Of a stretch of 64,000 nt of DNA, positions 15,257 through 64,000 are shown in pieces. Source of the stretch: Vicia villosa (lineage: Eukaryota > Streptophyta > Magnoliopsida > Fabales > Fabaceae); contig NC_081185.1 of the NCBI RefSeq assembly GCF_029867415.1, positions 84,201,712-84,265,711 of the forward strand. The letters are read 5' to 3'. The notes under the pieces were generated by a model. The model saw nothing but the letters and a program-made list of their open reading frames with translations. It did not search any database and was not told the origin of the DNA. Both the position numbers and the translations under genes were made by a program. How positions within the stretch are numbered: the first letter of the stretch is position 1; every line of letters starts with the position of its first letter.

Positions 15257-15850
15257 ATGGCAACGCTCATTTGTCAATTTTTTCTGATGGGACTTTTATG
15301 CATTGCGTTGATTCTTGCTTCAGGTAAGAAAATTAACAAAAACTTATTCTTAAAGGAAAATATTTTTTATTTTATTTTTCTTGTATATGTTAGGTTTTTT
15401 TACATGTCTTGAGGAAAACATTTGCATAGCTCAAAAGTTTGTTATAGTTTTGTACATCACTGTTTACATATAAATATATAGTATAAAAAGGAGTTTTCAA
15501 TTTTGATGAGTGTTTTACCGCGATAGTCCTAGCGTCTTGGAAGTGGTTTAGAGTTCTCAATGATTCTCCTAAGGATTGTATTTTCCATTATTGGAATACC
15601 TTACCTCTTTCTTGTATAAAGAGGTAATGGTCTCTCTTTGTAACTATCTTCTTTGTGATTAATATACCATTATTTAGTGAAAAAAAATAAAAAAATTGTA
15701 GCACGAACAACACGATATTTGAACGATTTATTACCTTTTCCATGCATTGGGCCATGCGAAAATTGTGCCGAATTGTGCAAGAGTAAGGGATATAAAGGTG
15801 GGGGAGGTTGTTACTCATCGACTTGTTGTTGTTACTTTCACAATTCATAG
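15257..15850 (+). CDS. DEFL1, secreted defensin-like cysteine-rich peptide (2 exons)
   Basis: Exon 1 is 15257-15323 (22 codons plus one base) and exon 2 is 15702-15850. A 378-bp intron with GTAAG donor and TTGTAG acceptor (phase 1) separates them. The predicted product is 71 residues. Residues 1-22 form a signal peptide with hydrophobic core MGLLCIALIL, so the product should enter the secretory pathway. The mature part has eight cysteines spaced C-x3-C-x2-C-x3-C-x10-C-x4-C-C-C, with a GGC (G-x-C) gamma-core-like motif before the CCC cluster. A signal-peptide exon, a phase-1 intron and one mature-peptide exon are the standard layout of plant DEFL/LCR genes. Such peptides act in defence, symbiosis or cell signalling; the specific role is unknown. 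Start codon choice rests on the TATA box and on the identical exon-1 length in DEFL2. No lesion seen. Confidence 0.85.
15540..15680 (+). mobile_element. LINE 3'-end-like insertion in the DEFL1 intron
   Basis: The sequence has a perfect 10-bp stem TTACCTCTTT/AAAGAGGTAA (15601-15610 and 15618-15627, loop of 7) and ends ttatttagtgaaaaaaa. This stem-loop plus poly(A) layout matches the 3' ends of the LINEs in this window. A related stem, TACCTC/GAGGTA, lies in the DEFL2 intron insert. No target duplication could be defined and the left border is approximate. Confidence 0.5.
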
Positions 15851-22015: not shown

Positions 22016-22183
22016 AACTTGAAGTTTGCTATGCATAATGCAATTACAAAAGATAATAATAAGAGTTGAAAGATAAAATCTTCAAAAAAAAAATGGTAAT
22101 GCACATTCGCAAGCTTTTTCTCTTGGGACTTTTATGCATTGCAGTGGTCCTATCTTCTGGTAAGAAACATAAGAACTTTTCTA

Positions 22184-22311
22184 GCAGTTAATATTTCTTC
22201 TGTGTCCTGTAATTTTCATGTCTGGAACATTTTACCTCTAAACTGTATAACGAGGTAGAATGGCGTGGTTGTAACAGTTGTTTCGTTTTAATTCCATTTC
22301 TTATTGAAAAA
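22184..22311 (+). mobile_element. 128-bp poly(A)-tailed retroposon in the DEFL2 intron
   Basis: Flanked by a perfect 19-bp direct repeat AAACATAAGAACTTTTCTA (22165-22183 and 22312-22330). It ends ttattgaaaaaaa and contains a TACCTC (22233-22238)/GAGGTA (22252-22257) stem like that in the DEFL1 intron. Best read as a severely 5'-truncated LINE copy. Confidence 0.75.
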
Positions 22312-22521
22312 AAACATAAGAACTTTTCTACCTTAAATTCTATTTTGTACATCATTGTTATAATATTAAAACAAATTTTGAGTTTGAGATTTTTTTTATA
22401 ATGAAGTATAAAAAATATTTGCTTACACAAAAAAAAATATTTAAATAAATTTTGAGTTTGAGAATTTTTTTTTTAGATGGAGCAACCCAAGGTGATAATC
22501 ATAAAATAAAATGTATTTTTG

Positions 22522-23250
22522 CACTACAAGAAAACTGACTTTTTGTGACACTCAAAAAGTGTCACTAAAAGTCAATAATCCGTAGGTAAAAAGCTTGCAG
22601 ACATTGAGTGACGCCCACCCTTAGCGTCAATTATAAGGGGGTGTAATGCTACGGTATAATAAGTGTCACTATAGCTTTTAGCTACGGGCAAATATTTACC
22701 TAAATGTCACTATATCATAGGTTACTGTTACAAATATTTCTCTTTTTACCTACAGTTTTAGTTTTAATAGGTGTCACTAGAACTCTATTAAATAATATTT
22801 TTATAATTTACCAAAATATAATAAAATTATAAATTATTTTTTTTTTTATAATTGAAGAATATAATATTAAAATTCAATTATTCGGTAAAAAATTTTACAA
22901 TACATTTTCTATTATTTCAATTTAAATATGACAAATTAACTTAATATTAAAATTAAACTATTATATCAATTTCAATTAAATTCAAATATTTCAATATAGT
23001 AACAAAGAATTTCAACTACATTTATTAATGCCAAAGACATTGAGATCCTTACATCATGATTACTAGAATATAATGAAATCGACTCTGAGAAGTTTAAGAG
23101 TGAAAACAAAATTACAAAACTCAGACAAAAACTAATTCTGAATCAGAGTATACCAAGTTGAAACCTGGCTAACTGAATAACCGATACAGAATGAAGAACC
23201 AGGAAACAATCCAAGAAATTTCTTTGAAGAAGCGTCCTCCAATGCTGCAT
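22522..23250. other. CACTA left subterminal region
   Basis: Several direct and inverted copies of GTGTCACT and of ACCTAC/GTAGGTA lie within the first ~280 bp. Such motifs are the expected binding sites of the element's own DNA-binding protein. The rest is AT-rich and non-coding. Confidence 0.7.
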
Positions 23251-23947
23251 CTAATAGGTTTTTGTTTTCGGAGCCTTCTTTGGTTGCCTTCTAGGAATGG
23301 AGTTTTTCATCCCAATGAAAAACAACAGAGCTCCAAAAACAGCCAGGTTCTGCAAGGATTGAAATTGAATCAACAGTTTGAATTTGGGCATAGACATGAA
23401 ACTAAACTTCAAATTAAAAAACAAGTCATTGCTCTGACCTGTGTAAATTTGATGAAAAGCTGAGTGAATTCTTTGTCCTCGTTATCGAAATTGTAAAAAT
23501 CATAACGAATTGGAGTAGCAATCAACTGATGCAGAAGCTACAGAAACAAAACAAAAAAACATAGCTTAAGAAACCGAGCATGTGAGATGAATATGGAATC
23601 CAATAGAGAAACTGGGTACAAACCAGTAGCAAAGCTCCGAAAGAGCTTCCAAAGATGAATAGAACCCCTCCAAGGCCCTTCAGAGCAATAGCCCCAGTAA
23701 TCAAAAGTTTCGTCTGTTCATCACATCAGTTATATTAGGGAACACGCGTAGACAAAATGACGAGCAAAAGTGAAGAAAAGTCGACATATATGTAGCATTC
23801 ACAACTTCTTCAACAGATATTTTCATTATTTAAGCCAGATGTATAATAACAAAAAGATGCGAAAAACATTATCAAATGAACATTTGTACATAAACAAGGA
23901 AAGAGCGAGAGAGGAGCTAACATCAATGTTAGGAATTTGAAAGCCAA
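23251..23947 (-). pseudogene. Captured fragment of an HR-like lesion-inducer (HRLI) gene
   Basis: Four splice-bounded exons on the minus strand: 23947-23922, 23713-23624, 23537-23439 and 23349-23251, each with AG acceptor and GT donor and with phases that fit. The joined frame is free of stops until TAG at 23253-23251 and covers about 104 residues. Diagnostic stretches are IALKGLGGVLFIFGSSFGA, LHQLIATPIRYDFYN and GALLFFIGMKNSIPRR, the C-terminal two thirds of plant HR-like lesion-inducing (DoxX-like, multi-pass membrane) proteins. The N-terminal exons (start MGF..., FNEFG motif) are absent. Retained introns show capture at DNA level. It lies inside the CACTA element, so it is not a native gene here. 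Confidence 0.85.
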
Positions 23948-24842
23948 CTTGATAATGGAAGCTTATATAGCCAATGTTGTACCCACTATATATGTATGTA
24001 TATTCAAACACAATAATACTCTTACATCATATTCAATGAACAAATAAATGAACAGCAATTAGCTTACATCGAATTTACTCTTAGATCAGTTCAGCTTCAA
24101 CCAAGAAAGCTATGTAGCAATTTCATAACTTCAAAATCTTTCGGAACATTCAATCATACTCTTAGTACATATTGTGAAAACATTTAGAATGACAAAACAT
24201 TAACATAACAATTCCAAAGAGTTCACACACCCTACAGTGTCATCATCATGCAAAGGGCACAAAACAATCACATACTACATTCAAATTTATACAGCCATGC
24301 AGCTAGCAGAAGAAACGGGTTAAGATGAACCAAAGAGTTAAAAGAGGCAGTCTTTTTGGGGTTTTCATCTCACAAGCTCTATTTGTAGATTTGATGCTTT
24401 ACCATGTAGTGATGTTTTCTTCATTATCATCTATCATCCACAAACTTAATTTTCTGTCCATTTATAGTTTTTTGGTATTCTATTTCTTGTACATTTGTCT
24501 CTATTATTTGGCTTACCAATTTTTCTTTAATTCTCTTGCTACTTGTACATTTGGAAAACCATTTCAATAATTTAAATGTCTCCAATCAATTCCATACATG
24601 ATCAATTTAATATATTGACAGAGCCAAATATAAGATTTTCTGCAACCAAGATATTATACTTTAGCTTCTAACATGCAACCAAGATGTAAATTAAATACCA
24701 TTCATGCATGCTTCTTAGTCATAACATAAATCAAATAACGCGAACACAAACATAAATCAAAGAAGAAACCTCCGAACAAATACAGAAATTTCAGAACAAA
24801 TACTATTAAACAAAAGTGGCAAATTGCATATTCAAAAGAACA
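23948..24842. other. CACTA interior, non-coding
   Basis: Probably captured intron sequence upstream of the HRLI exons. The segment near 24763-24826 recurs at 30191-30255 (see findings). No exon recognised. Confidence 0.4.
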
Positions 24843-24858
24843 AACATGCAAACATACC

Positions 24859-25043
24859 TTAGAAGCCACCTTTATCGGAGTTCCTGAAATAACAATATAT
24901 TTGAAGTTAAGCTATCATATTTCAAACCAGCATATTTCAAACTTGCAAAATCACTAAGGAATTAAACATAAATATAACATGAAGACGTATCAAAGACTTA
25001 AGCTTATACCTTTCCTCCCAATATCAAAGATGGTTTCTCCCAT
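24859..25043 (-). other. Possible mini-exons downstream of the transposase gene
   Basis: ATG at 25043, 14 bases after the transposase stop, opens MGETIFDIGRK and meets a GTATAAG donor at about 25010. A 26-nt segment at 24884-24859 has a TTTCAG acceptor and a GTATGT donor and continues in frame as GTPIKVASK. I do not recognise the source. Splicing on to the HRLI exon at 23947 would be out of frame. Confidence 0.35.
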
Positions 25044-25056
25044 TTTAATTTACAAA

Positions 25057-28000
25057 TTAATATGAGAGGTCTTCTTCACTCTCATCCTCTGTATCTTCAT
25101 TCTCATCATCATTTTGGGGAATGTCCTCTATATTAATTATAACTTCAATGATATCATCACTATCATCAGTTTCTGGTCTAATCAAATCATCATCATTTAT
25201 CTCTTCCAATACTTGTTCATTACTTTTATCTATGTCATTGGATTGAGCATCACCCATATCATATACATCTCTAACTTTAGCATGCACAACGACAAACCAG
25301 TCATTTAGTCTTCTATTCTCCACATAGAATACTTTCTTGGCTTGAGAAGCAAAAATAAACGGGTCATCACATATTTCATTTCCTGTATGTTGCAAGTAAT
25401 TAAAATTTACTAATGTCAAACCCAAATCATCAATATTGCACCCCTTATTTATGTCAACCCAATCACACTTGAAAAGTACAACTTTATACTTTCCTGCATA
25501 ATCCAACTGAATTATATCTATCAATGCACCATAGTAGTTTATTTCTCCTTCCTTAGGGCGTTTGTCTCGTGTACTAGCATAACTTTTGGTCTTAACAGTA
25601 ACACAAATTCCACTATTTTGAGTCTTTAAACACCTTTCCCTCTTCTTTGTATGAAATCTAACTCCATTAACAATATAGCCACTATAGTTTCTCACTTTTT
25701 CTAATGGCCCCCGTGCTAACCATCTGATTTCATCTGTAACTATAACACTTCCTTGTTCTTCTAATCGTGCTACCTAACACAATTACATTTTAAATGATCA
25801 CGAAAAATAATAAAATATTGATAATTGAAAAACCTTTGGAAAACTTACTCTTTCGCAAAACCAATCAGGAAATGTTCGACTATGAATTTTGTCAATTTCA
25901 TATGGTGATAGCCGACGATTTTGATTACGTCTCTTGATAAAGTCAATGTGTTCTCTAGGAAATACAAATACAAAATTAGAGACATTAAACTTCAAAAAGA
26001 ATATCAAACTAAACATTTTTACCTTTGAAAGGGGTCAACATTAGTGTTGTTGAAAAGCACATATCTATGTGCTTGTAGCAATGTTTTTTTATCAAGAGAA
26101 ACTCGAGAAACTCTTTTCCTTTTCTTCACTGTAAACCCAACATGGTTTTTTCTCCCCAAAGGTCTACCTCTAGGATTAAACACATTTGCATTTTCTACAA
26201 AGGAGGAATCATCATTTCGACAAGGTCGAGTAAATCGTGTTTCCACCGTAGAGAGATATCGTGAACAAAATATCAAACATTCATTAGCTAAATAACCCTC
26301 TGCAATAGACCCTTCAGGGCGAGCTCGATTACGAACAAATGACTTTAGAGTAAAAAGGAACCTGCAAAAAGATTTTTGGAATAAAATAAGAAAATGTTGT
26401 TTTTATTTATAATATAATGATATTAAATAACTAAAAAAATGTGTACCTTTCAATTGGATACATCCATCGATAATGAACTGGTCCACCAATTTTTGCCTCC
26501 TATGCCAAATGGATTACCAAATGCACCATTATAGTGAAGAAAGATGGAGGGAAAATCTTTTCTAATTGGCACAACGTTTTTGCTATTCGTTTTTCCAAGT
26601 GCTCCAAATTATGCTCACTAAGCACTTTACTACATAGTTCTTTGAAGAAACGACAAAGATCGCTAATCACTTTACTCACTTTGTTGGGCAAACAACCTTT
26701 CATAGCAATAGGAAGAAACTCTTGCATTAAGAGATGACAATCATAACTTTTGAGACCAAATATCTTGCGTTGTTTCACTTGCACGCATCTTGGAATACTA
26801 GAAACACACTCATCAGAAGATTTCATATTCTTTAGAACTTCCAAGAAAGATTCTTTCTCATTTGATGTCATTTGGTAACAAGCTCTAGGCAAATACTTTC
26901 TACCATTACTTTGATGCATCCTCGGGTGTAGTTGACTTCTTATGTTCATGTGTATAAGATCATAACGGGCCTTATCATTATCCTTTGATTTTCTTTCTAA
27001 ATTTAATAATGTCCCAACAATGTTATCACAAACATTTTTTTCAATATGCATCACATCAAGATTATGACGAAGAACATTATATTCCCAATATGGCAATGAG
27101 AAAAAAATGCTTTTCTTTTTCCATGGGGACAACACCTTGTTTTCACGATTTTTCAATTGTCTCAATGCAGTACTTCCATTGGGTACCTTAGGAGGAGCTC
27201 TAAACTCTTGGTCTCCATCAAAATGTCCTCTATTGTTTCTCCACTTATGATCAGGCTCTAACCAGCGTCGATGACACATATAAGAAAACTTTTTACTATA
27301 ACGCAACCACTTAGAGGCTGTGTCAAAACCACAACATGGACAAGCATATCGACCTTTAGTGCTCCAACCTGACAAATTTGCATAAGCAGGGAAATCATTG
27401 ATAGTCCACATGATTGCAGCACGCATTTGAAATGACTCTTTTTTACATGCATCAAACGTTTTGACCCCGATTTCCCATAATTCCTTTAATTCTTCCACAA
27501 GAGGCTGCATATATACATCAATATTATTACCAGGACCTTTTGGACCAGGAATAAGCAACGAGAGTATGAAATTCGGTTGCTTCATACACATCCACGGAGG
27601 AAGATTGTATGGAATCAAGACAACAGGCCAAGTGGAGTGAGAAATTGTCATGGTTTTGAATGGATTAAAGCCATCTGAAGCTAAACCTAGTCGAACGTTT
27701 CGAGGGTCGCTTGAAAAATCGGGATATCGATGATCAAAATCCTTCCAAGCAAAAGAATCTGCTGGATGTCTCATGAGTCCATCTCTAGTTCGACTATCGT
27801 CATGCCATGTCATGGAAGAAGCAGTTTTTGATGACATAAAAAGTCTTTGTAATCTAGACTTAAGAGGAAACCAACGAAGAACCTTAGCAGGTATCTTTTT
27901 TCTACCTTCAACATCGTCGGAGTTGACTTTCCATCTTGAGATACCGCATGTAGGGCAAACATTAGCATGAGCCAAATCCTTCCAATACAATATACATTCA

Positions 28001-28686
28001 TTAGGACAAACATGGATTTTTTCATATGATAATCCCAACCCTGAAATAATCTTCTTTGTCTCATAAAATGACTTTGGCAATGTATTTTCTTTTGGAAATG
28101 CATCACATAACAACTCTAGAAGCATTGAAAAGCTTTTGTCTGTCCATCCATTTAGACACTTTAAGTGGTACAGGTGTACGATGAATGATAGTTTGGTAAA
28201 CTTACAACCCGGATAAAGATTTTGTTCTGCCTCCTTCAACAACTTAAAGAACTTATCTGAATTATCACCCACTTCATATTGTTGAACATTATGTTCGTTT
28301 ATGAATGTTTCTCGATCCACATCCTCCATATTTATATCTGCATCATTATCATCATTATTTACATCCACTGAAAATGCATCATGAATCAATGCATCCATGT
28401 CATGATCAAACTCATGTTGTACTTCACATGCACTTGCACGATTTGAAGTGCTAACTTTCTCACCATGAAAGATCCAACGAATGTACCCTTTTAGAAAGCC
28501 TCGGCTGATTATGTGTTCGTAAACATCCATACGAGAATGCTTCTTGCAATTAACACACTTAGTACAGGGGCATAAAATTTTTCCATTTTCTGACGAATTT
28601 GCAAATGCAAAATCAAGAAAGTTTAAAATACCTCTAATGTACTCCTCTTGAGTTACAGAGTTATTTGATATCCAACTCTTATCCAT
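25057..28686 (-). pseudogene. TNP2-like CACTA transposase, 4 exons, one in-frame stop
   Basis: Exon 1 (28686-26447) starts MDKSWISNN, the usual start of this family, rather than nine codons earlier. It holds the transposase-associated domain (PCTKCVNCKKH, YEHIISRGF...Y..W..HGE) and the Transposase_21 core, including VCPNECILYWKD, GLASDGFNPF, PWMCMKQPNFILSLLIPGPK and TINDFPAYANLSGW. A DUF4218 region (HIEKNVCDNIVGTLL) follows. A TAG at 26502-26500 sits where the family reads on (IHLA-stop-EAK). Exon 2 is 26361-26023 (FVRNRARPEGSIAEGY, FCSRYL), exon 3 is 25954-25849, and exon 4 is 25773-25057 (DUF4216, acidic tail). All junctions have GT/AG and fitting phases. The product would cut and transfer the CACTA ends. 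The single stop suggests recent inactivation or dependence on related copies. Confidence 0.9.
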
Positions 28687-28851
28687 TTGATAAAACAAAC
28701 AAAAGCTGCACAATTAAAGAAGATACAAATGAATATTGACTGCTAAATTTTGAACTATGGAAAATAGATAAACAGCAGTATAAAAATGTAAGATTTACAC
28801 TCTTAAGAATAACTCTTAGGAATCTCATTTTGTTTACTTGATAACTAATAG

Positions 28852-29110
28852 TTTTGGCAAAGGGAGTCTGACATTTTAAGGTAGCAACTACAGACTCTAC
28901 AAGAAAACCATCGGTAAAAAAATCTTGAATTCGCGTACCTCACTAAGAATTATGAATGAGAGAAGTAACAGTTTTTTTCCATCGCAGGCAATTGATGGGA
29001 GAACAGCTTTACGGTTTGAGCATCAGAAACCTACAAGATCTAGAGAGACAACTCGAACTTAGTCTCCAAGGAGTCCGAATGAAGAAGGAGAAAATTCTGA
29101 CAGACGAGAT
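28852..29110 (+). pseudogene. Captured MADS-box K-domain fragment (AGL17/ANR1-like)
   Basis: A 62-nt segment 28852-28913 (FWQRE...QLQTLQENHR, with one TAG) ends at a GT donor. After a 74-bp intron with TTTCCATCGCAG acceptor, a 100-nt segment 28988-29087 follows, reading [20 protein letters not shown] and on to GVRMKK. The codon split CG|G (Arg) is preserved. 62 and 100 nt are the canonical sizes of exons 3 and 4 of type II MADS genes. The next 23 nt (EKILTDEI) are the start of exon 5, joined with no intron. Homology stops at about 29110. The K-box is the coiled-coil dimerisation region of MADS transcription factors; the DNA-binding MADS domain is not present. Confidence 0.85.
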
Positions 29111-30617
29111 TCTAGTTTTAATATAACATGAAAAATTGGAAGTGCATGATTGATTCAATATAAAAGGCAATCAGAACAAAAGTCTATAATGAAATATCTG
29201 TAATCAAATGTACTATTGATTGAAGATTTGAAGTACTCATTGGACCCGACCAAAATTCCTTTTTTTATTCATCCACTTCCCACTTATTTAGGGATGCAAA
29301 TTGACAAGTTATTAATCTATTGAAAATGAATGAAACTCTTTGGATGCTTTCAATTGGACCCCATACACAGAAACTGACAACTATCTGGGACCAGAGTAAA
29401 AAGCTTAGAAAAATCAATAGTTACATTAACTAAATCAAAAGGTATACAATCTAAGATGTAACAAATTTCAGATTCAATGGCAAACCAAATTTATGTATAA
29501 TATACTAAAATCAAAATAACGTAACCCATGAGCCATTAGATTTGTAGTTTACTTCAGATAATTGTTTATAGAATAACTTATAATGTTCTAAATTAGGACC
29601 ACTTCGGAATGTCTTTTATAGGGCAATATGTTTGAATGTTGTTTCTAAAAATGAACTAAATGTCCCTGAATTATTTTACAATCATCTAATATCAATTTTT
29701 CAACTTTTCTAAATATATCTCAATTATTAGACAAATCATTCTAAGATTGAATCCATATTGAAGCAAACATTAACTAAACTTTACATAAGATTACATTAAA
29801 CAGGCAAAGATTAGAGTATCATCCTAATCTGACCCACAAAACTATATTATTAGTACTATAAACAGTAATAGTAACATGATCATTTTAAAACTATACTACT
29901 TTTAGAGTATAATATTTGTATATTAGTATATTTTCAACTCCAACAACATTATTTTATATGATCTTCAATCTCAAGATGCTTAAATTAACCACTAATTTAA
30001 TTGAACCAATGCAGCTTAATTGAAACTAGTATGATATGGATGTCAATGTCTACAGTTTCCAATGTTTCTAATTACCAAGAAGCTATCAATGCGTTAATAA
30101 ACTCTCTATGAGACTGACTAAAACCAAGACGGAAAGCTCATCTCTTATGAACAAATAACAGTTGCTCCAAACAAAATGATGATTAAAAAGAGAAGAAACC
30201 TCCGAACAAATACAAAAATTTCAGAACAAATACTATTAAACAAAAGTGGCAAATTGCTTGGAACACATAATAAGCAATGTAAAATATTAACACATGGCTG
30301 CATTTATGCTTGGAACAATAATAAGCAATGTAAAATGTGTGTTATCAACTTGCCAATATCCAATCAATGAGCATATAAAAAAACCGACTTCACAGCTCTG
30401 AAATTTCTGATATGGTCAAGTATACAACTTAACCATCTTAAGAAACTAGAACTTGCAATTTAATGGGATGAAATTTCGAAAGCACAAACATTGCAAACTA
30501 GCAAAATTCAACAAAAAGAAAGCAAATAAGCACCGTGATAGAACATTAACATAAGTAATACACAAACTAAATTTATAGAAAAAGCAAAGAAGCAACATTC
30601 ATAGAAAAAGCACTAAC
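29111..30617. other. CACTA interior, non-coding
   Basis: AT-rich. Contains the second copy (30191-30255) of a segment also at 24763-24826 and a small duplication 'ttggaaca..aataagcaatgtaaaat' (30258-30290 and 30309-30336). No exon recognised. Confidence 0.5.
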
Positions 30618-30864
30618 CTTTAGCAAAGGCATGTGAATGTAAAACAAAGTGTCATTGGGATTGAGAAGAGTAGTCTCAAACTCTTCAGCAGAGAATTCAA
30701 GTGAGATATTCAACAAAGGCCTAAACAACTGCAACAACAACAAAGCACAACCTAAAAAAAACAACCTTTTCAAAACAAACACACAATAAAAACACAATCC
30801 AAATTCAAAAGATCACGCCGTTGAAGCTCACATTCAAGAAATTGAGCACGAAAGCCAACTCCCA
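30618..30864 (-). pseudogene. Captured DDT-domain protein gene fragment
   Basis: Minus strand. A partial exon 30864-30832 reads WELAFVLNFLN and ends at a GTGAGC donor. A complete 111-nt exon, 30728-30618, lies between a TTGTTGCAG acceptor and a GTTAGTG donor and reads LFRPLLNISLEFSAEEFETT then PNDTLFYIHMPLLK. Both match plant DDT-domain (chromatin-remodelling cofactor, DDR-type) proteins as I recall them. Phase is 0 at the joint. The flanking exons are missing. The fragment lies upstream of the transposase start, on the same strand. Confidence 0.75.
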
Positions 30865-30983
30865 TATATTACTAAATCTAAGGATGTTACGATTGTATTT
30901 GTATTCATACAAATTTCATAATGCAGACCAATTTCAAAAATGTTTTTATATTTTCAAAATAACAAACCATAATTATAATTACT

Positions 30984-31445
30984 TAAAGAGTAAGAACTAA
31001 ATCAGTTTCTAGACTATTATTACAATGCATGCTATTATTTTCTATATCAGTAATATATTTCTACAATTTGTTAATACAACATAATAGTTCTCCAAATACA
31101 TATAACTAAGTTTTATATAAACTGCAGAATGAAGATTACATTCTTCTAGCCATTTCACATGGTTTTATCTAACATATACAAAATCAAATTAGTGAAAGAC
31201 AGAGTGTGTAAGCCTAAAGAGTAAGAACTAAATCAGTTTCTAGACTATTATTACAATGCATGCTATTATTTTCTATATCAGTAATATATTTCTACAATTT
31301 GTTAATACAACATAATAGTTCTCCAAATACATATAACTAAGTTTTATATAAACTGCAGAATGAAGATTACATTCTTCTAGCCATTTCACATGGTTTTATC
31401 TAACATATACAAAATCAAATTAGTGAAAGACAGAGTGTGTAAGCC
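30984..31445 (+). repeat. 231-bp perfect tandem duplication
   Basis: 30984-31214 and 31215-31445 read identically by eye (starting taaagagtaagaactaaatc, ending agtgtgtaagcc). A partial third echo (ttagtgagaaacagagtgtgt) follows. It is non-coding and internal to the CACTA element. Confidence 0.9.
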
Positions 31446-32414
31446 TAAAAACTAGTTCAAATTAGTGAGAAACAGAGTGTGTCTAACCCTAGAAACTAGT
31501 TCAGATTGAGTGTAAAACATAAAAGCCAATCACTGCAAACCTTTATAACATATACAAAATCAAAAGCAACAAAGGAATAAACAAGGAAGAATGAAAGAAA
31601 AGGTTACCTCCGGTGGCGCAAGCGGAGGAGAACGATGGTGTGATGTGAATCGAACGGTCGAGATTCGGCGACGTTGGAGGCGCGACTATACTATAGTAGT
31701 TTCCGGCGATTTTCTAAGATAATATACTGGATCTGACAAAACAAAAACGAAATCAAACCTAATCTACGTCACTCAGATCTAGTGGTGTAAAGGAAAAGTC
31801 GACGAAGAAGAAACCTGAAGAAGAATGAATGGCGGTGGCCGGAGCTGCGGCGGCTGGTTGATTCCAGTCGATTTGATTGATGAATCTTTCCGGCAAACGA
31901 GAATTGCGGCGGCTGGTTTACGTTGAAATGAAAATAGAATTGTGAGAACGAGAGAATCCAAAAAAACACAAAAACTTTTCTCAAATTTTTTTTATTTTTG
32001 AAAATGATTTTTTAGTAAGTTTATGATATACAAATTTGATAGGTAATAAAATTAAAAAATAATATTATTAAAGTATAATATATTTATTTTTTGAGTCATA
32101 AAGTTTTTTTTTAAGATTAATATTTTGTTTAAAATATATCAAAAAATATTATTTTTTATTTTTTGAAAATATTATTTTTTTTAATAAAATATTTGTTAAT
32201 TAATTTGTTGAGTCATATCCTATTTTATTAAATGGGAAAATGTGACGGACAAATACTACTGTAGGTAAAAGTAACATTTAGTGACAAATATTAAGTGTAG
32301 GTAAAAGTAACATTTAGTGACAAATATTAAGTGTAGGTAAAAGTAACATTTAGTGACAAATATTAAGGTGTCACTAAAAATGAGTGTCACAAGAAGGCTT
32401 TTTTTTTTTTAGTG
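31446..32414. other. CACTA right subterminal region and transposase leader
   Basis: The GC-rich part 31600-31960 contains two copies of CCAGCCGCCGCA on the minus strand and an exon-like end 'cttcttcag'. It is probably the promoter/5' leader of the transposase transcript. 32252-32374 holds the 36-bp subterminal tandem repeat. 31985-32220 is very AT-rich. Confidence 0.6.
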
Positions 32415-32593
32415 TTGGGGATTGTGGAGATTGTGAAAGAAGATGCATTTTGGAGGGATTTCACAAAGGGGAATGCGATTATGAATCGGAATGTTGTTGT
32501 AAATACGTAACAATCTCGTATAAAATAAATAAGACACATCTTCTTCCAAATCTTTTATTTTATACATATATTGGCTGGTTTGAGCAGAAGTAA

Positions 32594-35431: not shown

Positions 35432-35436
35432 CTAAT

Positions 35437-38030
35437 TGTAACACCCCAATTCTACCCACGAAATTTAAATAAAATCAGAGTATAAAAATTCACAAAAATA
35501 AGCAATTGAGGTATCACATATTCATTCTCAAAGACAAATCACTTCATCGCATAAAGCGGATACATAGCATTCATAAAAAAATATGGGAGAACCGACAACA
35601 TCGAATGATAATCTTTAATATAAAATAACTTCCATAGAAGTGCAACGGAAACTCAACAATTAGTTCAAGATTTCATAGCATCTTAATTCAACAATTAACA
35701 CAATTAAAGTGGCAATCTCAAATAAACAACTCAAGTATTTTCCAAAACATAATAAATCAATAGCAAGTAAATTGACGTGTTCATCCCCCCGAGTGCTACG
35801 TATCAGAGCGACAACGACTCAAGACCAACTCGGCTAACCTCCTCTCAATGCGAATCACCTGCACGTTACCAATATAAAGGCAACGGCGAAACAAAGAAAG
35901 GGTGAGATATCAATTCATATAATCGAGCGCATGATAAATTATATATTAGAAATTAGACATATTCGGTTGATCGCATTCGCAAGAATTAATATAGTCATTC
36001 TATCATTAAGTCACAAATTCACATCATCACATAATCCCATCATTTAATAATTCACAAAAGTAAAAATCACAACAAAGTCACAAACGTCACACTATGAAGC
36101 ACATAGAAATATATGGGACATGACTCATGTATATGCATGTGGTACCAATCGGAGCTTCAGCCCCCGTCACCAATTGCCCAATTCAGAGGCACAAGGCATA
36201 AGCCTTCGTCACTAATTTGCCAATCCAGGCCGTCACAATAAATATGCAAATGCATGTGACTCGATGAACCGAACATCACACAACACCATCATCATCATTT
36301 ACTTCACAAAAATATTCTTCACAAGGCACACGCCCATATCACAATTATTACCGATTATTAAAGGTAATACATTTCACACATAATACAACAACTTCATACA
36401 ACAACGAAACAATTCCGACAATTCATCAAATCAACGGACGATGCCATTAGCAAAAGAATCACAAAGATATTCACAACAATCACATTCACGGTCAAATTCG
36501 CAAGATACCGTAATTTACCGCTAAACCGAATAGTTAATCTAAGTTCAATTTATTTTAATTAAATAGGCTTATTAAAAATTAATTCAACTATTAATTTAAT
36601 CGACCGATTAATATTACAATTTCGATAAAATAACACCACCACGTTAATCTACTAATTAAATTTAGCTACCACGTAAATTTTCATCAAATTCCGGACAATT
36701 AAATATACCGCTTAATTCGGCTATTTCGATCGACGGAACTGTTTTGTATTACACAACACCACTATTTCCAATTTATGTACACACTACCACTTTACTGTTC
36801 TATTATAGTTACTAATCTCTATTTAATATAAACAAGTCATGCCTACATTTTATTTGTTTAGTTAAACTATTTCATGAATTATTAATTAAACTAATTAATA
36901 TAAAACATGTAAACCAAGCATACTTAAGCCAATGAAGTGTAGCTCTCAGTAAGATATCTAGACAAAAACAAACACACAAGGTAATTGTTTTTCAACATAC
37001 AAATATCTTTTCTAAATTTTTCTAAAGTATCAAATTGGCAATTCTAGTGGTCACAGCTTAATTTCTAAAGCATGTAGTCAGTGAAAGAGTTTTTTTTTTT
37101 TTTTATCATTCTTTTCAATCAGCTTCATGGTGTAATGAGTGTATAATGCAACTGTCTCTCATATATTGTAACAGTCACATATGTAAAAATATTTATCCTC
37201 ACGCTACAACATAAGCTCAACGGTTCAACGGTTCCAGTAGCATATATATATATATATATGAATACAAACATGGGCATACAAGCATGAACTTAGACAACAT
37301 CAATTAGCAAAACAGAAAACATGGAATTTCTAGATTCCGATAACAATTAATACAGTGAAAGTAAAACCTAAATCCCTAAACCCCAACATAAAATTGCTCA
37401 TAAGCCCCATTATAGGAAGAGAACCCCACCCTAACCTTGGATTGAGTGCAGCTCTAATGGATTCTTGGAGAAATTTGGAGAAAATAGCTCTTGAATGGAA
37501 TCCCTCTTTGGCCTCCTCCTTCCCTCTAAAACCCTAGTTTTCTTTCTTTCTCCCAAATGACTTTCTCTCTAATTTCTATTTTCCTTTTTCTGGTTTTCTA
37601 TACTATATATATTATGCTTCTATTTTTATTATTATAACATTGGGCCTAACAATTAATACCACATTTCTATTCTTCACTTAATTAAAAAAAATAGGCCCAT
37701 TCTTCTCCTCAACATAAAATAAATAAATCAAATTGTTACTTCTAATAATATTCCACTATTATTTTATTAAAACAAAATATTTGATTATTTAATATACCGG
37801 TTAATACTCAATAACTAATATTTACGGTTTAATCTCAATTACTCAGAAAATTCCCAAAACGCTACATATTAGCTTATTAATATTTTTAATACTAAAAATA
37901 TTAAAATTTTCGATTAAATGTCGATCCGCTATCCCGAACTAATACCGACTAAATCGCTTCAAAACGCGAAAATTCAATAAACATCACAAACGTCTAAATT
38001 AAGCGAATAAATAAATTTCTGGGCGTTACA
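35437..38030 (-). repeat. 3' LTR of the Tekay element
   Basis: 2594 bp. Carries (AT)n near 37243 and a T-run near 37088. The 60-codon plus-strand frame at 37355-37537 is antisense to the element and duplicated in the other LTR. Confidence 0.95.
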
Positions 38031-38043
38031 ACTCTCCCCCACT
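38031..38043 (-). other. Polypurine tract of the Tekay element
   Basis: AGTGGGGGAGAGT on the minus strand, directly before the 3' LTR and just past the pol stop. It is the primer for plus-strand DNA synthesis. Confidence 0.9.
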
Positions 38044-41000
38044 AGAATATTTTCGTCCTCGAAAATAGAAATTTACCTGATTGAAATAACTCAGGATAGG
38101 AGTCTCGCATCTTGCTCTCCAGCTCCCAAGTTAGGCTCTCACCAGCAGCTCCCAACCAGACAACTTTCACCAATGGAATCTCTTTGCCTCTTAGAACCTT
38201 CACTTCGCGACCCTCAATTCGCACAGGCATCGTCTCTACTGTGAGATTATCGCGCACTTGCACATCGTCCATCTGAATCACATGAGACGGATCTGAAACA
38301 TACTTCCGGAGTTGTGACACATGAAACACATCGTGCAAGTTAGCAAGATTTGGCGGTAACGCCACACGATAAGCAACTTTCCCCACTCGATCTGATATCT
38401 GATATGGACCGATAAAGCGAGGAGTGAGCTTCTTAGACTTCAGAGCTCGCCCAACACCAGTCACAGGCGTGACTCTCAAAAACACATGATCACCAGCTTG
38501 GAATTCCAAATCTTTTCTCCTTTTGTCATGGTAACTTTTCTGCCTACTCTGAGAAGCTTTCATCTTATCTCGAATAAGTTTCACTTTCTCCGTAGTCTCC
38601 CTAACCATCTCGGGTCCAAGTACCACACTCTCACCCGACTCGTGCCAACATAACGGAGTCCTACATCTCCGACCATACAACGCCTCAAAAGGTGCCATTC
38701 CAATACTAGAATGGTAACTGTTATTGTAAGTGAACTCAATCAACGGAAGATGAGTATCCCATGAACCTCCCTGCTCAAGAACACATGCTCTCAACAAATC
38801 CTCCAATGACTGAATAGTCCTCTCGGTCTGACCATCTGTCTGCGGATGATACGCCGTACTCAACCTCAACTTAGAACCCAACGCCTCTTGCAAACTTCTC
38901 CAGAAATCGGAAGTAAACCTTGGATCTCTATCGGACACAATACATAAAGGTACACCATGCAACTTCACAATCACCCTGACATATATCTCTGCTAACTTCA
39001 CAATTGGAAATGTGATGTTAATAGGTATAAAGTGTGCCGACTTCGTAAGCCTATCAACAATCACCCAAATCGAGTCAAATCCTCTTAAGGTATTAGGTAA
39101 TCCCGTTACAAAGTCCATCGAAATGCTATCCCATTTCCATTCTGGAACTTCTAACGGTTGCATCAATCCTGCAGGCTTCTGATGTTCGATCTTTGACTTC
39201 TGACAAGTCAAACAAGAATACACAAACTGTGCCACATCACGTTTCATACCAAGCCACCAAAACAAACCCTTCAAGTCTTGGTACATCTTTGTAGCTCCTG
39301 GATGAATACTCAATTTGCTTCTATGACTCTCTTCAAGAATCGCCTTCTTAATCTCTTCATCATCAGGAATGCAAATACGATCTCGGAATCTCAACACACC
39401 ACGTGCATCTAACTTGAAATCACCATTCTCATGTCGATTGGTTCCTACCATCAAATCCACCAACTTCCCATCTAGCTTCTGAGCCTCTCTGATATTGTCA
39501 AGAAAGTCATTGTTAATCTTTAACATTCCCAACATAACACTATGCGGTGTCACTTCGCATACCAAACTCAAGTCTCGGAACTGCTCAATCAACTCCAACT
39601 CTTTAACCATCATGGCCGACATATGCAAAGTCTTTCGGCTCAAAGCATCAGCCACTACATTTGCTTTTCCAGGATGATAGTTCAAACCGAAATCATAATC
39701 CTTCAACAATTCAAGCCACCTTCGTTGCCTCATATTCAACTCTTTCTGATCAAAAAGGTACTTCAAACTCTTATGGTCGCTAAACACTTCAAATCTAGAA
39801 CCATAAAGATAATGTCTCCAAATCTTTAACACAAAGACCACTGCAGCCAACTCAAGATCATGCGTAGGATAATTCTTTTCATGGGTCCTCAACTGCCTAG
39901 ACGCATAAGCAACCACTTTACCATTTTGCATAAGTACACCACCTAATCCCATCAAGCAAGCATCACAGTACACAACAAAAGGCTCTCCTGAATTAGGCAA
40001 AGTCAAAACTGGAGCCGACGTCAACCTCTTCTTCAACTCATTGAAACTCTCTTCACATTGAACATCCCACACAAACGCCTTTCCTTTACAAGTCAATCTC
40101 GTCAATGGAAGTGCCAACTTAGAAAATCCTTCGATAAACCGTCTATAGTAACCAGCTAAACCCAAGAAACTTCTAATCTCAGTAGCAGACTTCGGAGTCT
40201 CCCATTGTAACACAGCATCAACTTTAGAAGGATCCACGGAAATGCCACTACCAGAAATAACATGGCCAAGGAAACTAACTTCATGCAACCAGAATTCACA
40301 CTTAGACAACTTGGCATACAACTGTTTCTCTTTCAGAACTTGCAACACAATTCTCAGATGCTCTTCATGCTCCTCTTCAGATTTAGAGTAGATAAGAATG
40401 TCATCAATGAATACCACCACAAACCGATCTAAGTAAGTATGAAAAATACGGTTCATGTACTCCATGAATACTCCCGGTGCATTAGTAACACCGAAGGGCA
40501 TCACTGAATACTCGTAGTGTCCATACCGAGTCCTGAACGCGGTCTTCTGAATGTCATCTTCTCTTACTCTAATCTGGTGATATCCGGACCTCAAATCAAT
40601 CTTAGAAAACACACTAGCACCCACTAACTGATCCATCAAGTCATCGATTCTTGGAAGTGGATACTTGTTCTTTATCGTCACTTTATTCAACTGCCGATAA
40701 TCAACACAAAGTCTCATACTTCCATCTTTCTTCTTTACAAGCAATACGGGTGCTCCCCACGGCGATACACTTGGTCTTACAAACTTCTTCTCAAGCAATT
40801 CCTCTAATTGCTTCTTCAATTCAGACAACTCTGATGCAGACATTCTGTACGGTGCCATAGAAACAGGTCTGGTACCAGGTACAAGATCAATCGTAAACTC
40901 AACTTCTCTTTCTGGAGGTACATCAGGGATGTCATCAGGAAACACTTCAGAAAATTCTCTCACCACCTTTAACTCATCAATTCGAACTTGATTCTCAAAA

Positions 41001-42426
41001 GACAAGGACGCCATCAATGAGAACATTTGCGCTTCGTCTTGCATCAGTTGCTTCAATTGCTTACCAGTCAACAAACCAACTCCTTCTTCTTCAAGAGAAG
41101 AAAATCTCACCGTGTTGTTATAACAATTGATATGAACGTAGTTGTGTTTCAACCAATTCATACCCAAAACCACATCCAAACCAACAAGCGGTAAACATAC
41201 AAAGTCAACAACAAAGTCCCTATCAAAGATTGACAGAGGACAATCCAAACACATTAGAGAAGTAGTCACCGTTCCCTTAGCGGGGAGTTCGACAACCATT
41301 TCTCCATTCATAGCAGACAAAGTAAGACCCAATCTTTTCACACAATCAGCAGCAATAAAACAATGAGTGGCACCGGTATCAATAATAGTAATTGAAGGAA
41401 TGCTATTAATGAAACAAGTACCTCTAACAAGGCCATCCTCACTAGATGTCTGAGTTCCTGACAAAGCGAACACTTTACCACCTACAGCTGTCTTCTTTGG
41501 CTTCTGACACTGGCTATCAATATGTCCCTCCGCACCACAGTTAAAGCAAACAACATCCTTATGCTTACAAGCAGATGACATATGTCCCGTCTTACCACAA
41601 CGGTAACACCTCTTCACATCAGCAGTACAAACATCGCTCTTATGACCAGGTCGACCACACTTGAAACATACAACCCTAGCAGGAGCATCTCCCCCACTAG
41701 TCTTATGACCATGAGCAACTCTTTGCTTCCCTTTACCAGCATCATATGGTTTCTCACGGCTTTGTTGATTCTTGCCCCTCTTCTCATTAATAACACGATA
41801 ATGAGCGTTGTTGTCCTCCTCATAAATCCGACAACTACCAACCAAATCAACAAAAATACGGATCTTCTGGTAACTGACCGCTTTCTTGATTTCTGGACGC
41901 AACCCATTCTCAAACTTGATACACTTGGAAAACTCACCATTCGGACCATCATAGTATTGGTAAAACTTAGCCAGTTCACCAAACTTAGCAGCATACTCCA
42001 CAACAGACTTGTTCCCTTGTTTCAGCTCAAGGAATTCAATCTCCTTCTTACCACGGACATCCTCAGGAAAGTATTTCCTTAAGAACTCCATGCGAAACGC
42101 AATCCAAGTGATCTCCTCACCATGAGCCTCTAACCTCCTAGGGTCTCAAGCCACCAATCATCCGCTTCCTTAGCCAGCATATGAGTGCCATATCTAACCT
42201 TCTGTGTAGGAGTGCAATCCATAACACGAAAAATTCGCTCGATCTCCTTCAACCAATCAAGAGCACCATCGGGGTCATGCGTACCCTTGAACACCGGCGG
42301 ATTCTCCCTCTGGAAAGTCGCCAAACTACGAGATCCTGCATTCTCATCAGCATTAGGTTGGTTCTGCATAGCCTGAGCCATCGCTTCCAAAGCAGCAGCT
42401 ATCGCAGCATCATTCCTCCCAACCAT
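38042..42426 (-). pseudogene. Tekay gag-pol polyprotein with one gag frameshift
   Basis: Gag starts at 42426 (MVGRNDAAIAAALEAMAQA). The frame ends early at 42130, and the downstream frame, open from about 42140 and starting with a Met at 42091, runs 1349 residues to 38042. A single-base loss around 42120-42135 separates them. Domains numbered from the 42091 Met: gag core 1-103; three CCHC knuckles at 142-195; aspartic protease DTGA at 238; reverse transcriptase about 440-620 with FIDD at 561; RNase H from about 704 to 820; integrase with H923, H930, C960, C963 zinc site and catalytic D993, D1054, E1090 (35-residue spacing); chromodomain-like end around 1296-1340 ([17 protein letters not shown]). 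All catalytic residues are present. Apart from the gag shift the coding region looks intact. Confidence 0.93.
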
Positions 42427-42521
42427 AGCGTCACTACAACACAAAAACAATCAGCACAAACAACAATACATGATTGTTAGACTACACTACGACTCGACAC
42501 TTGGCCGGACAAGACCGACCT

Positions 42522-42533
42522 GCTCTGATACCA
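42522..42533 (-). other. Primer-binding site of the Tekay element
   Basis: TGGTATCAGAGC on the minus strand, complementary to the 3' end of initiator tRNA-Met, four bases inside the 5' LTR. Confidence 0.93.
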
Positions 42534-42537
42534 CTAA

Positions 42538-45136
42538 TGTAACACCCCAATTCTACCCACGAAATTTAAATAAAATCAGAGTATAAAAATTCACAAAAAT
42601 AAGCAATTGAGGTATCACATATTCATTCTCAAAGACAAATCACTTCATCGCATAAAGCGGATACATAACATTCATAAAAAAATATGGGAGAACCGACAAC
42701 ATCGAATGATAGTCTTTAATATAAAATAACTTCCATAGAAGTGCAACGGAAACTCAACAATTAGTTCAAGATTTCATAGCATCTTAATTCAACAATTAAC
42801 ACAATTAAAGTGGCAATCTCAAATAAACAACTCAAGTATTTTCCAAAACATAATAAATCAATAGCAAGTAAATTGACGTGTTCATCCCCCCGAGTGCTAC
42901 GTATCAGAGCGACAACGACTCAAGACCAACTCGGCTAACCTCCTCTCAATGCGAATCACCTGCACGTTACCAATATAAAGGCAACGGCGAAACAAAGAAA
43001 GGGTGAGATATCAATTCATATAATCGAGCGCATGATAAATTATATATTAGAAATTAGACATATTCGGTTGATCGCATTCGCAAGTATTAATATAGTCATT
43101 CTATCATTAAGTCACAAATTCACATCATCACATAATCCCATCATTTAATAATTCACAAAAGTAAAAATCACAACAAAGTCACAAACGTCACACTATGAAG
43201 CACATAGAAATATATGGGACATGACTCATGTATATGCATGTGGTACCAATCGGAGCTTCAGCCCCCGTCACCAATTGCCCAATTCAGAGGCACAAGGCAT
43301 AAGCCTTCGTCACTAATTTGCCAATCCAGGCCGTCACAATAAATATGCAAATGCATGTGACTCGATGAACCGAACATCACACAACACCATCATCATCATT
43401 TACTTCACAAAAATATTCTTCACAAGGCACACGCCCATATCACAATTATTACCGATTATTAAAGGTAATACATTTCACACATAATACAACAACTTCATAC
43501 AACAACGAAACAATTCCGACAATTCATCAAATCAACGGACGATGCCATTAGCAAAAGAATCACAAAGATATTCACAACAATCACATTCACGGTCAAATTC
43601 GCAAGATACCGTAATTTACCGCTAAACCGAATAGTTAATCTAAGTTCAATTTATTTTAATTAAATAGGCTTATTAAAAATTAATTCAACTATTAATTTAA
43701 TCGACCGATTAATATTACAATTTCGATAAAATAACACCACCACGTTAATCTACTAATTAAATTTAGCTACCACGTAAATTTTCATCAAATTCCGGACAAT
43801 TAAATATACCGCTTAATTCGGCTATTTCGATCGACAGAACTGTTTTGTATTACACAACACCACTATTTCCAATTTATGTACACACTACCACTTTACTGTT
43901 CTATTATAGTTACTAATCTCTATTTAATATAAACAAGTCATGCCTACATTTTATTTGTTTAGTTAAACTATTTCATGAATTATTAATTAAACTAATTAAT
44001 ATAAAACATGTAAACCAAGCATACTTAAGCCAATGAAGTGTAGCTCTCAGTAAGATATCTAGACAAAAACAAACACACAAGGTAATTGTTTTTCAACATA
44101 CAAATATCTTTTCTAAATTTTTCTAAAGTATCAAATTGGCAATTCTAGTGGTCACAGCTTAATTTCTAAAGCATGTAGTCAGTGAAAGAGTTTTTTTTTT
44201 TTTTTTATCATTCTTTTCAATCAGCTTCATGGTGTAATGAGTGTATAATGCAACTGTCTCTCATATATTGTAACAGTCACATATGTAAAAATATTTATCC
44301 TCACGCTACAACATAAGCTCAACGGTTCAACGGTTCCAGTAGCATATATATATATATATATATATGAATACAAACATGGGCATACAAGCATGAACTTAGA
44401 CAACATCAATTAGCAAAACAGAAAACATGGAATTTCTAGATTCCGATAACAATTAATACAGTGAAAGTAAAACCTAAATCCCTAAACCCCAACATAAAAT
44501 TGCTCATAAGCCCCATTATAGGAAGAGAACCCCACCCTAACCTTGGATTGAGTGCAGCTCTAATGGATTCTTGGAGAAATTTGGAGAAAATAGCTCTTGA
44601 ATGGAATCCCTCTTTGGCCTCCTCCTTCCCTCTAAAACCCTAGTTTTCTTTCTTTCTCCCAAATGACTTTCTCTCTAATTTCTATTTTCCTTTTTCTGGT
44701 TTTCTATACTATATATATTATGCTTCTATTTTTATTATTATAACATTGGGCCTAACAATTAATACCACATTTCTATTCTTCACTTAATTAAAAAAAATAG
44801 GCCCATTCTTCTCCTCAACATAAAATAAATAAATCAAATTGTTACTTCTAATAATATTCCACTATTATTTTATTAAAACAAAATATTTGATTATTTAATA
44901 TACCGGTTAATACTCAATAACTAATATTTACGGTTTAATCTCAATTACTCAGAAAATTCCCAAAACGCTACATATTAGCTTATTAATATTTTTAATACTA
45001 AAAATATTAAAATTTTCGATTAAATGTCGATCCGCTATCCCGAACTAATACCGACTAAATCGCTTCAAAACGCGAAAATTCAATAAACATCACAAACGTC
45101 TAAATTAAGCGAATAAATAAATTTCCGGGCGTTACA
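42538..45136 (-). repeat. 5' LTR of the Tekay element
   Basis: 2599 bp, nearly identical to 35437-38030. It begins on the minus strand at 45136 and contains the element's promoter. Confidence 0.95.
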
Positions 45137-62400: not shown

Positions 62401-64000
62401 CCGGGATGTCAAGAGCATCGACGGCAAAAACAACCTCATCGGTAACAACTTCACCTGTAGGAAATGTATCAGGCTGCAAGGAAGCATCAATCTCAGCACA
62501 AAGGACACAAACGTTAGTGTCAGTGCAGTCAGGACATGAATAATTATCATCAAAATCAGAGAGAGATGGAAAATCAAGTGCAAATAATTCAGAACAACTC
62601 TCATCAACTAATTCAGAAATCAACTCAATGTTAAAAACCGAATGCTCCTCCACGGGGTGTTTCATGGCATCAAAGATATTAAATTTTGCGACGATGTCAC
62701 CAAATTCCATGGACATGGTTCCATCATCAACATCAACTTTTGTCTTCGCCGTTTTCATGAACGGTCTGCCTAAGATGATGGGAGCTCTGCTTGACTTAGT
62801 TTCTCCTTCCATGTCCAGAATGTAAAAATCTGCAGGAAAAATTAAATCGTTAACTTGAACGAGGACGTCTTCCACTATGCCGGTGGGACGTGCATTGCTC
62901 CTGTTCGCCAGTTGAACGATTAAACCTGTATGCTGCATGGGACCAAGGCAAAGGTTATTATAAATAGAAGTAGGCATAACATTAATGCCCGCTCCTAAAT
63001 CAAGCAAACAGTTATCAAATTTCTTATCCCCGATGGTACAAGGAATAGTAAAAGTTCCCGGGTCCTTGCACTTTTGTGGCAAGACCTGAGAGATGGCCGA
63101 AACACTTTGTTCGGGCTGAATGAAAGCAGAGATGCTTCTTCCCAAGTTGACTCTGTCACTTCCTTTTACTTTTCTCTTGTTTGTACACAAATCCTTCAGA
63201 AACTTTGCATACCTTGGAACTTGCTTAATCACATCATGAAGCGGAATATTTACCGCTACTTTTCTGAACATATCCAAAATTTCTTTTTCTTTGTCTCCCT
63301 CCTCAATTCTTTTATTTTTCAGAACTCTATGTGGGAAAGGAACTGGTGGCACATACTCCTTTTCTTTATTTTTTTCAGTTCCGACCACAACAAAAGAAGG
63401 AGAAGAAAGCTCAGCTGGAGAAGGTTCAGATGGAGAAAGTTCAGAAGTTACCTCAATGAATTTTTTATTCTTTTCAGGGGCTGTTTCTATAACTTTTCCG
63501 GATCGCAAAGAAATAGCGCTCACATTAGCATTACCATTCGGATTGACAACAGTTTGTGCTGGAAGTTGGTTTGAACCTTGAGCTTGCATATTATTTATTT
63601 GAGTAGCAAGTTGTCCCATCTGTGTGGTCAAGGTCTGAATGCTAGTGTCGGTTCTTTGTTGAAACTGAAGGTTGTTCACGGCCATTTGCTTAACAAGATC
63701 TTCCAAGGATGGTCCGGAAGTAGTAGTTGGAGGGGTGTGATGTGGCTGGGGTAATGGAACGGTAAGCTGTTGTTGGGAAGGCTGCTGATGTCCATATCGA
63801 AGGTTGGGATGATTCCTCCAATTGGGGTGATATTTGTTGGTAGACAAGTCAGGGGTGTTGTTGTACCTGTTCTGGTTGTAAAGGTTGGTTGCATAAGCTT
63901 GAGGCAGCTCGGTAACAGTATCATCTTTCAGAAGAGGACAAGTATCAGTGGGGTGTTCATGAGCTGTACAAATGCCACATACAGTTGCTGTTTGAGGTTT
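59450..64000 (-). CDS. Athila-type gag-pol polyprotein (N-terminus beyond window)
   Basis: The frame is open from 64000 to TAG at 59450-59452, 1516 codons plus stop; the true start is outside the window. Residue numbers below start at 63847. Upstream of it a gag zinc knuckle C-x2-C-x4-H-x4-C ([14 protein letters not shown]) is visible at about 63979-63938. Then come a Q/P-rich gag linker and the Athila signatures [10 protein letters not shown] (about 109-118), [17 protein letters not shown] (about 210-226), [12 protein letters not shown] (259-270) and protease DLGA at 283. Reverse transcriptase spans about 590-780 with FMDD at 741; RNase H from about 885 with D890; integrase with H1096, H1103, C1134, C1137 and catalytic D1167, D1226, E1262 (35-residue spacing); C-terminal GPF region near 1407. 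No stop or frameshift. No envelope-like frame follows. The coding region looks intact. Confidence 0.93.

Follow-up and report, generated by a model that had tools for sequence, protein, structure and literature searches.

A CACTA element within exon 2 of a defensin-like gene

We analyzed a 64,000-nucleotide stretch of the Vicia villosa assembly GCF_029867415.1 (contig NC_081185.1, C6:84201712-84265711), referred to below as the window and numbered from its first letter. The window holds 2 defensin-like (DEFL) genes, DEFL1 and DEFL2, and a CACTA transposon that splits the second exon of DEFL2. The transposon ends in terminal inverted repeats (TIRs) and is bordered by a target site duplication (TSD). 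These features lie at the following positions.

22093..22159, plus strand: DEFL2 exon 1 (67 nt, followed by donor GT at 22160; leader judged hydrophobic by eye)
22477..22521, plus strand: left-hand part of DEFL2 exon 2 (preceded by acceptor AG at 22475-22476; ends on codon position 1)
22519..22521, plus strand: TSD TTG, left copy (a single TTG at the uninserted C655 and C3 sites described below)
22522..32414, minus strand: CACTA transposon of 9,893 bp (strand given by its transposase gene)
22522..22554, plus strand: left TIR of the CACTA element
32381..32414, minus strand: right TIR (A run after CACT on the minus strand)
32415..32417, plus strand: TSD TTG, right copy
32418..32593, plus strand: right-hand part of DEFL2 exon 2 (7 of the 8 cysteines; CCC ends at 32500; stop at 32591-32593)
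15257..15323, plus strand: DEFL1 exon 1, of an intact tandem relative of DEFL2
15702..15850, plus strand: DEFL1 exon 2 (stop TAG; mature part models as strand-helix-strand-strand)

Among the 1,569 CACTA...TAGTG pairs counted in the window at a spacing of 200-25,000 bp, the pair at 22522/32414 matches best at its termini (score 19, versus 15 for the second best). A 3-bp TSD accompanies 29 of the 1,569 pairs, and the runner-up with a TSD scores 12. The subterminal motifs GTGAC/GTCAC occur 5 and 6 times in the two terminal 250-bp stretches, versus 0.05 times per 250 bp inside the element. TIRs, a 3-bp TSD, a Transposase_21 domain, subterminal repeats, and dispersed copies, by which CACTA (En/Spm) elements are recognized, were all found. 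A preliminary description of this DNA, made from the letters alone, had proposed a CACTA element of 9,893 bp bordered by TTG; length and boundaries proved exact (TTG at 22519-22521 and 32415-32417), and the TIRs, the TSD, the subterminal motifs, and the transposase domains bear out the class assignment. Near the right end of the element, at 32248-32371, short tandem units contain the subterminal motif.

Uninserted copies run across the insertion site

The same assembly was searched with the right flank of DEFL2. This search returned 5 matches at 4 places: the window, C655, C6 at 85.2 Mb, and 2 neighboring matches on C3 at 187.74 Mb. The C655 sequence contains both flanks, joined at a single TTG, so that DEFL2 is uninterrupted there; it encodes 69 residues, with the stop 4 codons after the last cysteine. 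The C3 paralogue also reads straight across with a single TTG, the letters beside it equal those of the window on both sides, and its stop comes 3 codons after the cysteines. Because these natural uninserted sequences run across the site with one TTG, the two flanks belong to one gene, which the element splits in exon 2. The preliminary description had proposed both the insertion in exon 2 and the continuity of the gene, and the C655 and C3 copies confirm them; empty sites lacking exon-like sequence, which it had named as counter-evidence, were found neither at C655 nor at C3, both of which lie within the same assembly.

Within the window alone, the join between the 2 halves of DEFL2 is backed solely by peptide similarity, and might then be put down to unrelated flanks brought together by chance or misassembly, with no split gene. 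With 2 natural uninserted sites running straight across, and with none of 2,000 shuffles reaching the observed score, we consider this virtually out of the question, save for a misassembly at both uninserted loci. The score in question, between the downstream 57-residue frame of DEFL2 and DEFL1, was 61, and the highest score among the shuffles was 56. In random sequences of local composition, an open frame of 57 codons arose in 41 of 5,000, and 28 open codons with at least 7 cysteines in 0 of 5,000.

Excision alleles had also been suggested for this locus. The C655 and C3 sites instead look never-inserted: each has one TTG, and no excision footprint was seen at the TTG of either. Separately, the extra residue that DEFL2 has between its first 2 cysteines relative to DEFL1 was considered as a footprint and rejected, the copies on C655, on C3, and at C6:85.2 Mb also having 4 residues there. 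The C6:85.2 Mb match is a more distant DEFL relative whose eight-cysteine region is uninterrupted.

Structure and defensin-like character of DEFL1 and DEFL2

Genes of the plant DEFL family have 2 exons and occur in tandem copies, and their products carry a hydrophobic leader and 8 cysteines. In DEFL2, a phase 1 intron separates exon 1 from exon 2; the left part of exon 2 ends with the first base of a codon (22521), and the first complete codon to the right of the element begins at 32420. DEFL1 and DEFL2 are tandem relatives: they align over a region that starts upstream of exon 1 and runs into the intron, with 503 of 799 columns identical (63%, 122 gap columns), and a 100-nt stretch at exon 1 of DEFL2 is 75% identical to DEFL1. 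Between their first exons, 10 of the 14 changed codons are nonsynonymous, the sites being too few for a selection test.

DEFL1 and the uninserted DEFL2 of C655 are both short, have a leader (by eye), and contain 8 cysteines in the order C-X3-C, G-X-C, C-X-C. The cysteine regions on C3 and at C6:85.2 Mb also have 8 cysteines each, and on inspection by eye the C3 copy agrees with this order. The spacing of the cysteines had been said to parallel that of DEFL1, which holds as a similarity but not as an identity: counted by eye, it is 3-2-3-10-4-0-0 in DEFL1 and 4-2-3-9-5-0-0 in the C655 DEFL2. A single-sequence model of DEFL1 exon 2 predicts a strand-helix-strand-strand arrangement (pLDDT 73.6, pTM 0.48). 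When this model was used in a Foldseek search, the 50 rows inspected of 83 were mostly scorpion toxins and defensins, with a best E of 0.3 and 0 of 83 at E ≤0.001. The right part of DEFL2 fell below the Pfam cut-offs for Gamma-thionin and Defensin-like (11.9 versus 25.1 bits and 16.7 versus 27), and DEFL1 had no match to either family; "defensin-like" is therefore applied here in a loose sense. A large protein collection searched with the right half of DEFL2 and with DEFL1 yielded no candidate sharing 3 words.

The inserted allele is predicted to be null

Reading on from 22521 into the element gives 5 codons (ALQEN) and then a stop. Because the frame ends there, the inserted DEFL2 allele would be null in the plant unless the element leaves. 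The insertion had been called frame-preserving, and the uninserted site is indeed in frame, but the present allele is not: insert plus TSD measures 9,896 bp, which is 2 mod 3, and therefore the insertion itself keeps no frame. Continuity with the TSD counted once holds for any insertion, and the label is in this sense trivial.

The allele could still make its peptide if the element were spliced from the transcript like an intron. CACTA elements in soybean gene introns are described as being spliced out (excerpts of PMC4219821 and PMC1947982), and the plus strand of the vetch element ends in a T run followed by AG, which is acceptor-like; the best donor-like site scanned, 23582, has a phase that fits this acceptor. 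The soybean elements, however, lie in introns and the vetch element in an exon. Site 23582 lies beyond the stop that is met 5 codons into the element, the best site before the element (22492) has a different phase, and exon 1 joined directly to the acceptor would be out of frame (67+4 = 2 mod 3). Scored with an ad hoc weight table, donor-like sites in the stretch scanned, 22477-23600, reach at most 7.6, versus 9.6 and 11.6 for the 2 real donors. We therefore regard intron-like removal as very improbable.

The open frame downstream of the insertion had been taken as a sign that the insertion is likely recent, or that excision alleles may keep the gene under selection. The window copy lacks 33 bp after 32500, the end of the last cysteine codon, that hold the stop in C655, and because they are missing the frame stays open to 32591-32593. 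Comparison with C655 indicates that this long open frame is a second lesion and no sign of intactness; with stops kept in both C655 and C3, the argument from a missing stop falls away. Elsewhere in the coding sequence, the left piece of exon 2 (22479-22520) is identical to C655 at 42 of 42 positions, and the right piece has one synonymous change in 81. The junction codon, GGG in the window and GGA in C655, is synonymous by eye. Exon 1 has 3 differences in 66 bp, all nonsynonymous, and the first 2 bases of exon 2 (22477-22478) also differ, which makes the intron-spanning codon nonsynonymous (by eye).

The element carries a disrupted transposase gene and belongs to a multicopy family

Inside the element, the following features were recognized.

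25060..28686, minus strand: transposase gene of several exons with the domains Transpos_assoc (PF13963), Transposase_21 (PF02992), DUF4218 (PF13960), and DUF4216 (PF13952)
23254..23725, minus strand: captured fragment of an HR-like lesion-inducing (HR_lesion, PF05514) gene, in 3 exon-like pieces
30618..30728, minus strand: exon-like open piece, read by eye
30984..31445, plus strand: tandem duplication of 231 bp, the 2 units identical

The Transposase_21 match is strong (E 1.4e-98; 328.8 bits versus a cut-off of 28.6). An autonomous CACTA element has an uninterrupted transposase frame, and the frame of the window copy contains an in-frame nonsense codon at 26500-26502. Because of this codon the window copy is probably not autonomous, and its mobility would therefore need transposase supplied in trans by other copies, as described for Spm/En (excerpts of PMC2613891). 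Among proteins, the transposase is matched best by one from V. villosa (99% identity across 84% of the query), and intact copies exist.

The 3 HR_lesion pieces match with E values of 1.3e-7, 2.7e-10, and 1.1e-3, the third falling below the curated cut-off. A host gene fragment with exon-intron layout inside the TIRs is what characterizes gene-capturing CACTA elements of the Tgm-Express type, and the HR_lesion pieces give the window element this feature. The piece at 30618-30728 had no match in Pfam or PDB. A 76-bp direct repeat, 93% identical, flanks the transposase gene inside the element (24752-24827 and 30182-30257).

The left end of the element gave 40 matches of 77-100% identity among the 40 candidates, out of 164, that were scored; the window is one of them, leaving 39 others, of which 3 on C3 are 99% identical. 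The sole copy that was read, C3:88788468-88795110, aligns with the window element over 6,881 columns, of which 17 are mismatches and 2 are gaps; some 235 of its bases enter this count twice, at the 231-bp repeat. It lacks 3,016 bp (window 26633-29648), including most of the transposase, and aligns at the 231-bp duplication as though it had a single unit. The family is multicopy and, to judge from this near-identical copy and the C3 left ends at 99%, its copies have spread recently. The HR_lesion stretch is common to the window element and the C3 copy that was read, and the capture is therefore older than the divergence of at least this pair.

The insertion itself is likely recent, as the preliminary description had supposed, but not on its evidence of a missing stop: exon 2 is near-identical to that of C655, and the sister element on C3 is separated by the few mismatches given above. 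The divergence of the sister copy gives no strict age bound if the window copy was its donor.

Interpretation of the locus

The reading that we favor, at a probability of about 0.93, is that a CACTA element of a recently active family inserted by cut-and-paste into exon 2 of DEFL2 on C6, producing a null allele, and that an uninserted copy of the gene is still present. A member of the multicopy family would have entered the C6 copy and duplicated TTG, the cut-and-paste step following from the known biology of the family. The inserting element would have been transposase-defective at insertion or would have been disabled since. The DEFL2 allele would thereby have been made null, with uninserted DEFL2 kept on C655. 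Several observations weigh against this reading; they concern the state of the gene when the element landed and the nature of C655.

If the 33 bp holding the stop were lost first, the gene was already altered, and possibly a pseudogene, before the element landed. The stop present in C655 is absent from the window copy, and the C3 copy likewise has a stop after its cysteines; the intron-spanning codon and 3 exon 1 codons of the window copy also differ from C655 in residue. A 33-bp loss after the last cysteine, however, would add a tail and keep the core. From 22479 to CCC there is one synonymous change versus C655 in 123 bp, besides the synonymous junction codon, and one allele cannot give the order of the 33-bp loss and the insertion. 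We consider prior alteration of the C6 gene rather unlikely.

On C655 (580 kb) the 2 DEFL genes, together with the intervening blocks, stand in C6 order. Of the C6-C655 blocks, 30 were listed at a minimum of 300 columns and above 80% identity (C655:450001-455000 and C6:84200001-84201711 were left out of the comparison), and 15 of these follow a single order between C6 84.191 and 84.260 Mb, a span of about 68 kb with both DEFL genes in it. The other 15 fall outside this order, one being listed twice owing to overlapping stretches and some lying on the reverse strand; many of these are probably repeats. Over 14 window blocks (alignments of at least 150 columns, above 75% identity), C6 and C655 mismatch at 6.03% of 12,657 aligned bp, more than the 3.14% at which the heterozygosity of the sequenced plant was put (excerpts of PMC10659084). 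Single blocks range from 1.50 to 11.39%, and the mismatch to the right of the insertion is 3.34% of 1,498 bp. In addition, C655 survived a purge_dups screen that removed 54 Mbp of duplicates before scaffolding (PMC10659084, same excerpts).

The mismatch level, the survival of C655 in that screen, and the half of the blocks out of order would all suit a segmental duplicate, in which case each chromosome set would hold one broken and one intact locus. Against a duplicate stand the 15 colinear blocks. About 0.65 Gb of the assembly, moreover, lies outside the pseudomolecules (the difference of 2 figures in PMC10659084), and the excerpted text of that paper attributes false duplications to high heterozygosity and describes the haplotigs as resolved to the level of structural differences between homologues. 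We judge the duplicate to be doubtful, and C655 to be probably the other haplotype of an outcrossing plant, allelic to the C6 locus; this estimate takes account of the purge_dups screen and the count of out-of-order blocks. Reciprocal loss, with C655 lacking DEFL1, was considered and rejected, since extending the comparison to the adjoining stretch shows DEFL1 on C655. An insert of approximately 29.4 kb (C655:484627-514008) starts directly behind the DEFL1 stop there and ends in TAGTAGTG. Its right end looks CACTA-like from sequence, and at E 1e-10 the insert did not match the window element.

In its most far-reaching form, the favored insertion would mean that the plant carries, in the heterozygous state, a young null allele of DEFL2 caused by a transposase-defective, gene-carrying CACTA element that can be mobilized in trans and may still leave. 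We hold this combination to be quite unlikely; if it were true, alleles of the null, intact, and footprint kinds would be segregating at the locus in an outcrossing legume. As a natural example the locus is well resolved: a large transposon disrupts a cysteine-rich peptide gene of a fast-changing kind, and the uninserted state can be read in the same assembly. Should C655 be the other haplotype, the reference of a heterozygous plant has placed a null allele on the chromosome and the intact allele on an unanchored scaffold, and such placement would distort counts of small peptide genes. The general view of CACTA elements and of defensin-like genes is unchanged.

Other elements in the window

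Long direct repeats at 35432-38030 and 42534-45136 are 99.58% identical over 2,604 columns, and a minus-strand open frame between them (38045-42145) has gag, protease, RVT, RNase H, and integrase-type domains. By these sequence features, 35432-45136 is identified as a young Ty3-type LTR retrotransposon. A plus-strand open frame at 54100-56394 with RVT_1 and zf-RVT domains is LINE-like, and a minus-strand open frame of 1,516 codons at 59453-64000, which runs to the end of the window, is perhaps another retroelement.

Comparison with known systems

DEFL1 and DEFL2 resemble plant DEFL peptides in their 2 exons, leader, 8 cysteines in the C-X3-C, G-X-C, C-X-C order, and tandem copies; DEFL1 tentatively models as strand-helix-strand-strand. 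The cysteine spacing in both differs from that of classical plant defensins. The excerpted account of the maize Meg family describes tandem cysteine-rich peptide genes with transposons nearby, including CACTA, but these CACTA sequences lie 3' of the genes and not in an exon (PMC4236715).

With regard to the element, the Type 1 CACTA "Jozin" of Chenopodium likewise has only the 4 transposase domains and captured gene fragments, and is of similar length (8,258, 8,380, and 9,210 bp for 3 examples), but comes from another plant family and captured other genes (excerpts of PMC8978399). Tgm-Express1, in the soybean wp allele, is alike in being a CACTA element with captured host gene fragments that disrupts a gene; it is unlike in its 5.7 kb, its 5 fragments, and its location in an intron (excerpts of PMC1947982). 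Compared with Tgm-Express1, the vetch element has all 4 transposase domains (with the nonsense codon) and one recognized captured gene. In soybean, TgmR* (13 kb) lies in a MYB intron and Tgmt* (20.5 kb) in intron 1 of F3'H, and these are, like the vetch element, large legume CACTA elements in genes, Tgmt* having a 3-bp TSD, a tnp2-type transposase, and subterminal repeats (excerpts of PMC4219821 and PMC2613891). Both are intronic and excision products of TgmR* were detected by PCR, whereas the vetch element sits in a coding exon and its activity is presumed. Among the hits examined in our literature searches, which for several of them were a subset of the total, we found no report of a CACTA insertion in a legume defensin-like gene; this does not prove that none exists. 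The vetch locus is a clean case of an ordinary process, and differs from the nearest soybean cases in its host gene and its exon location.

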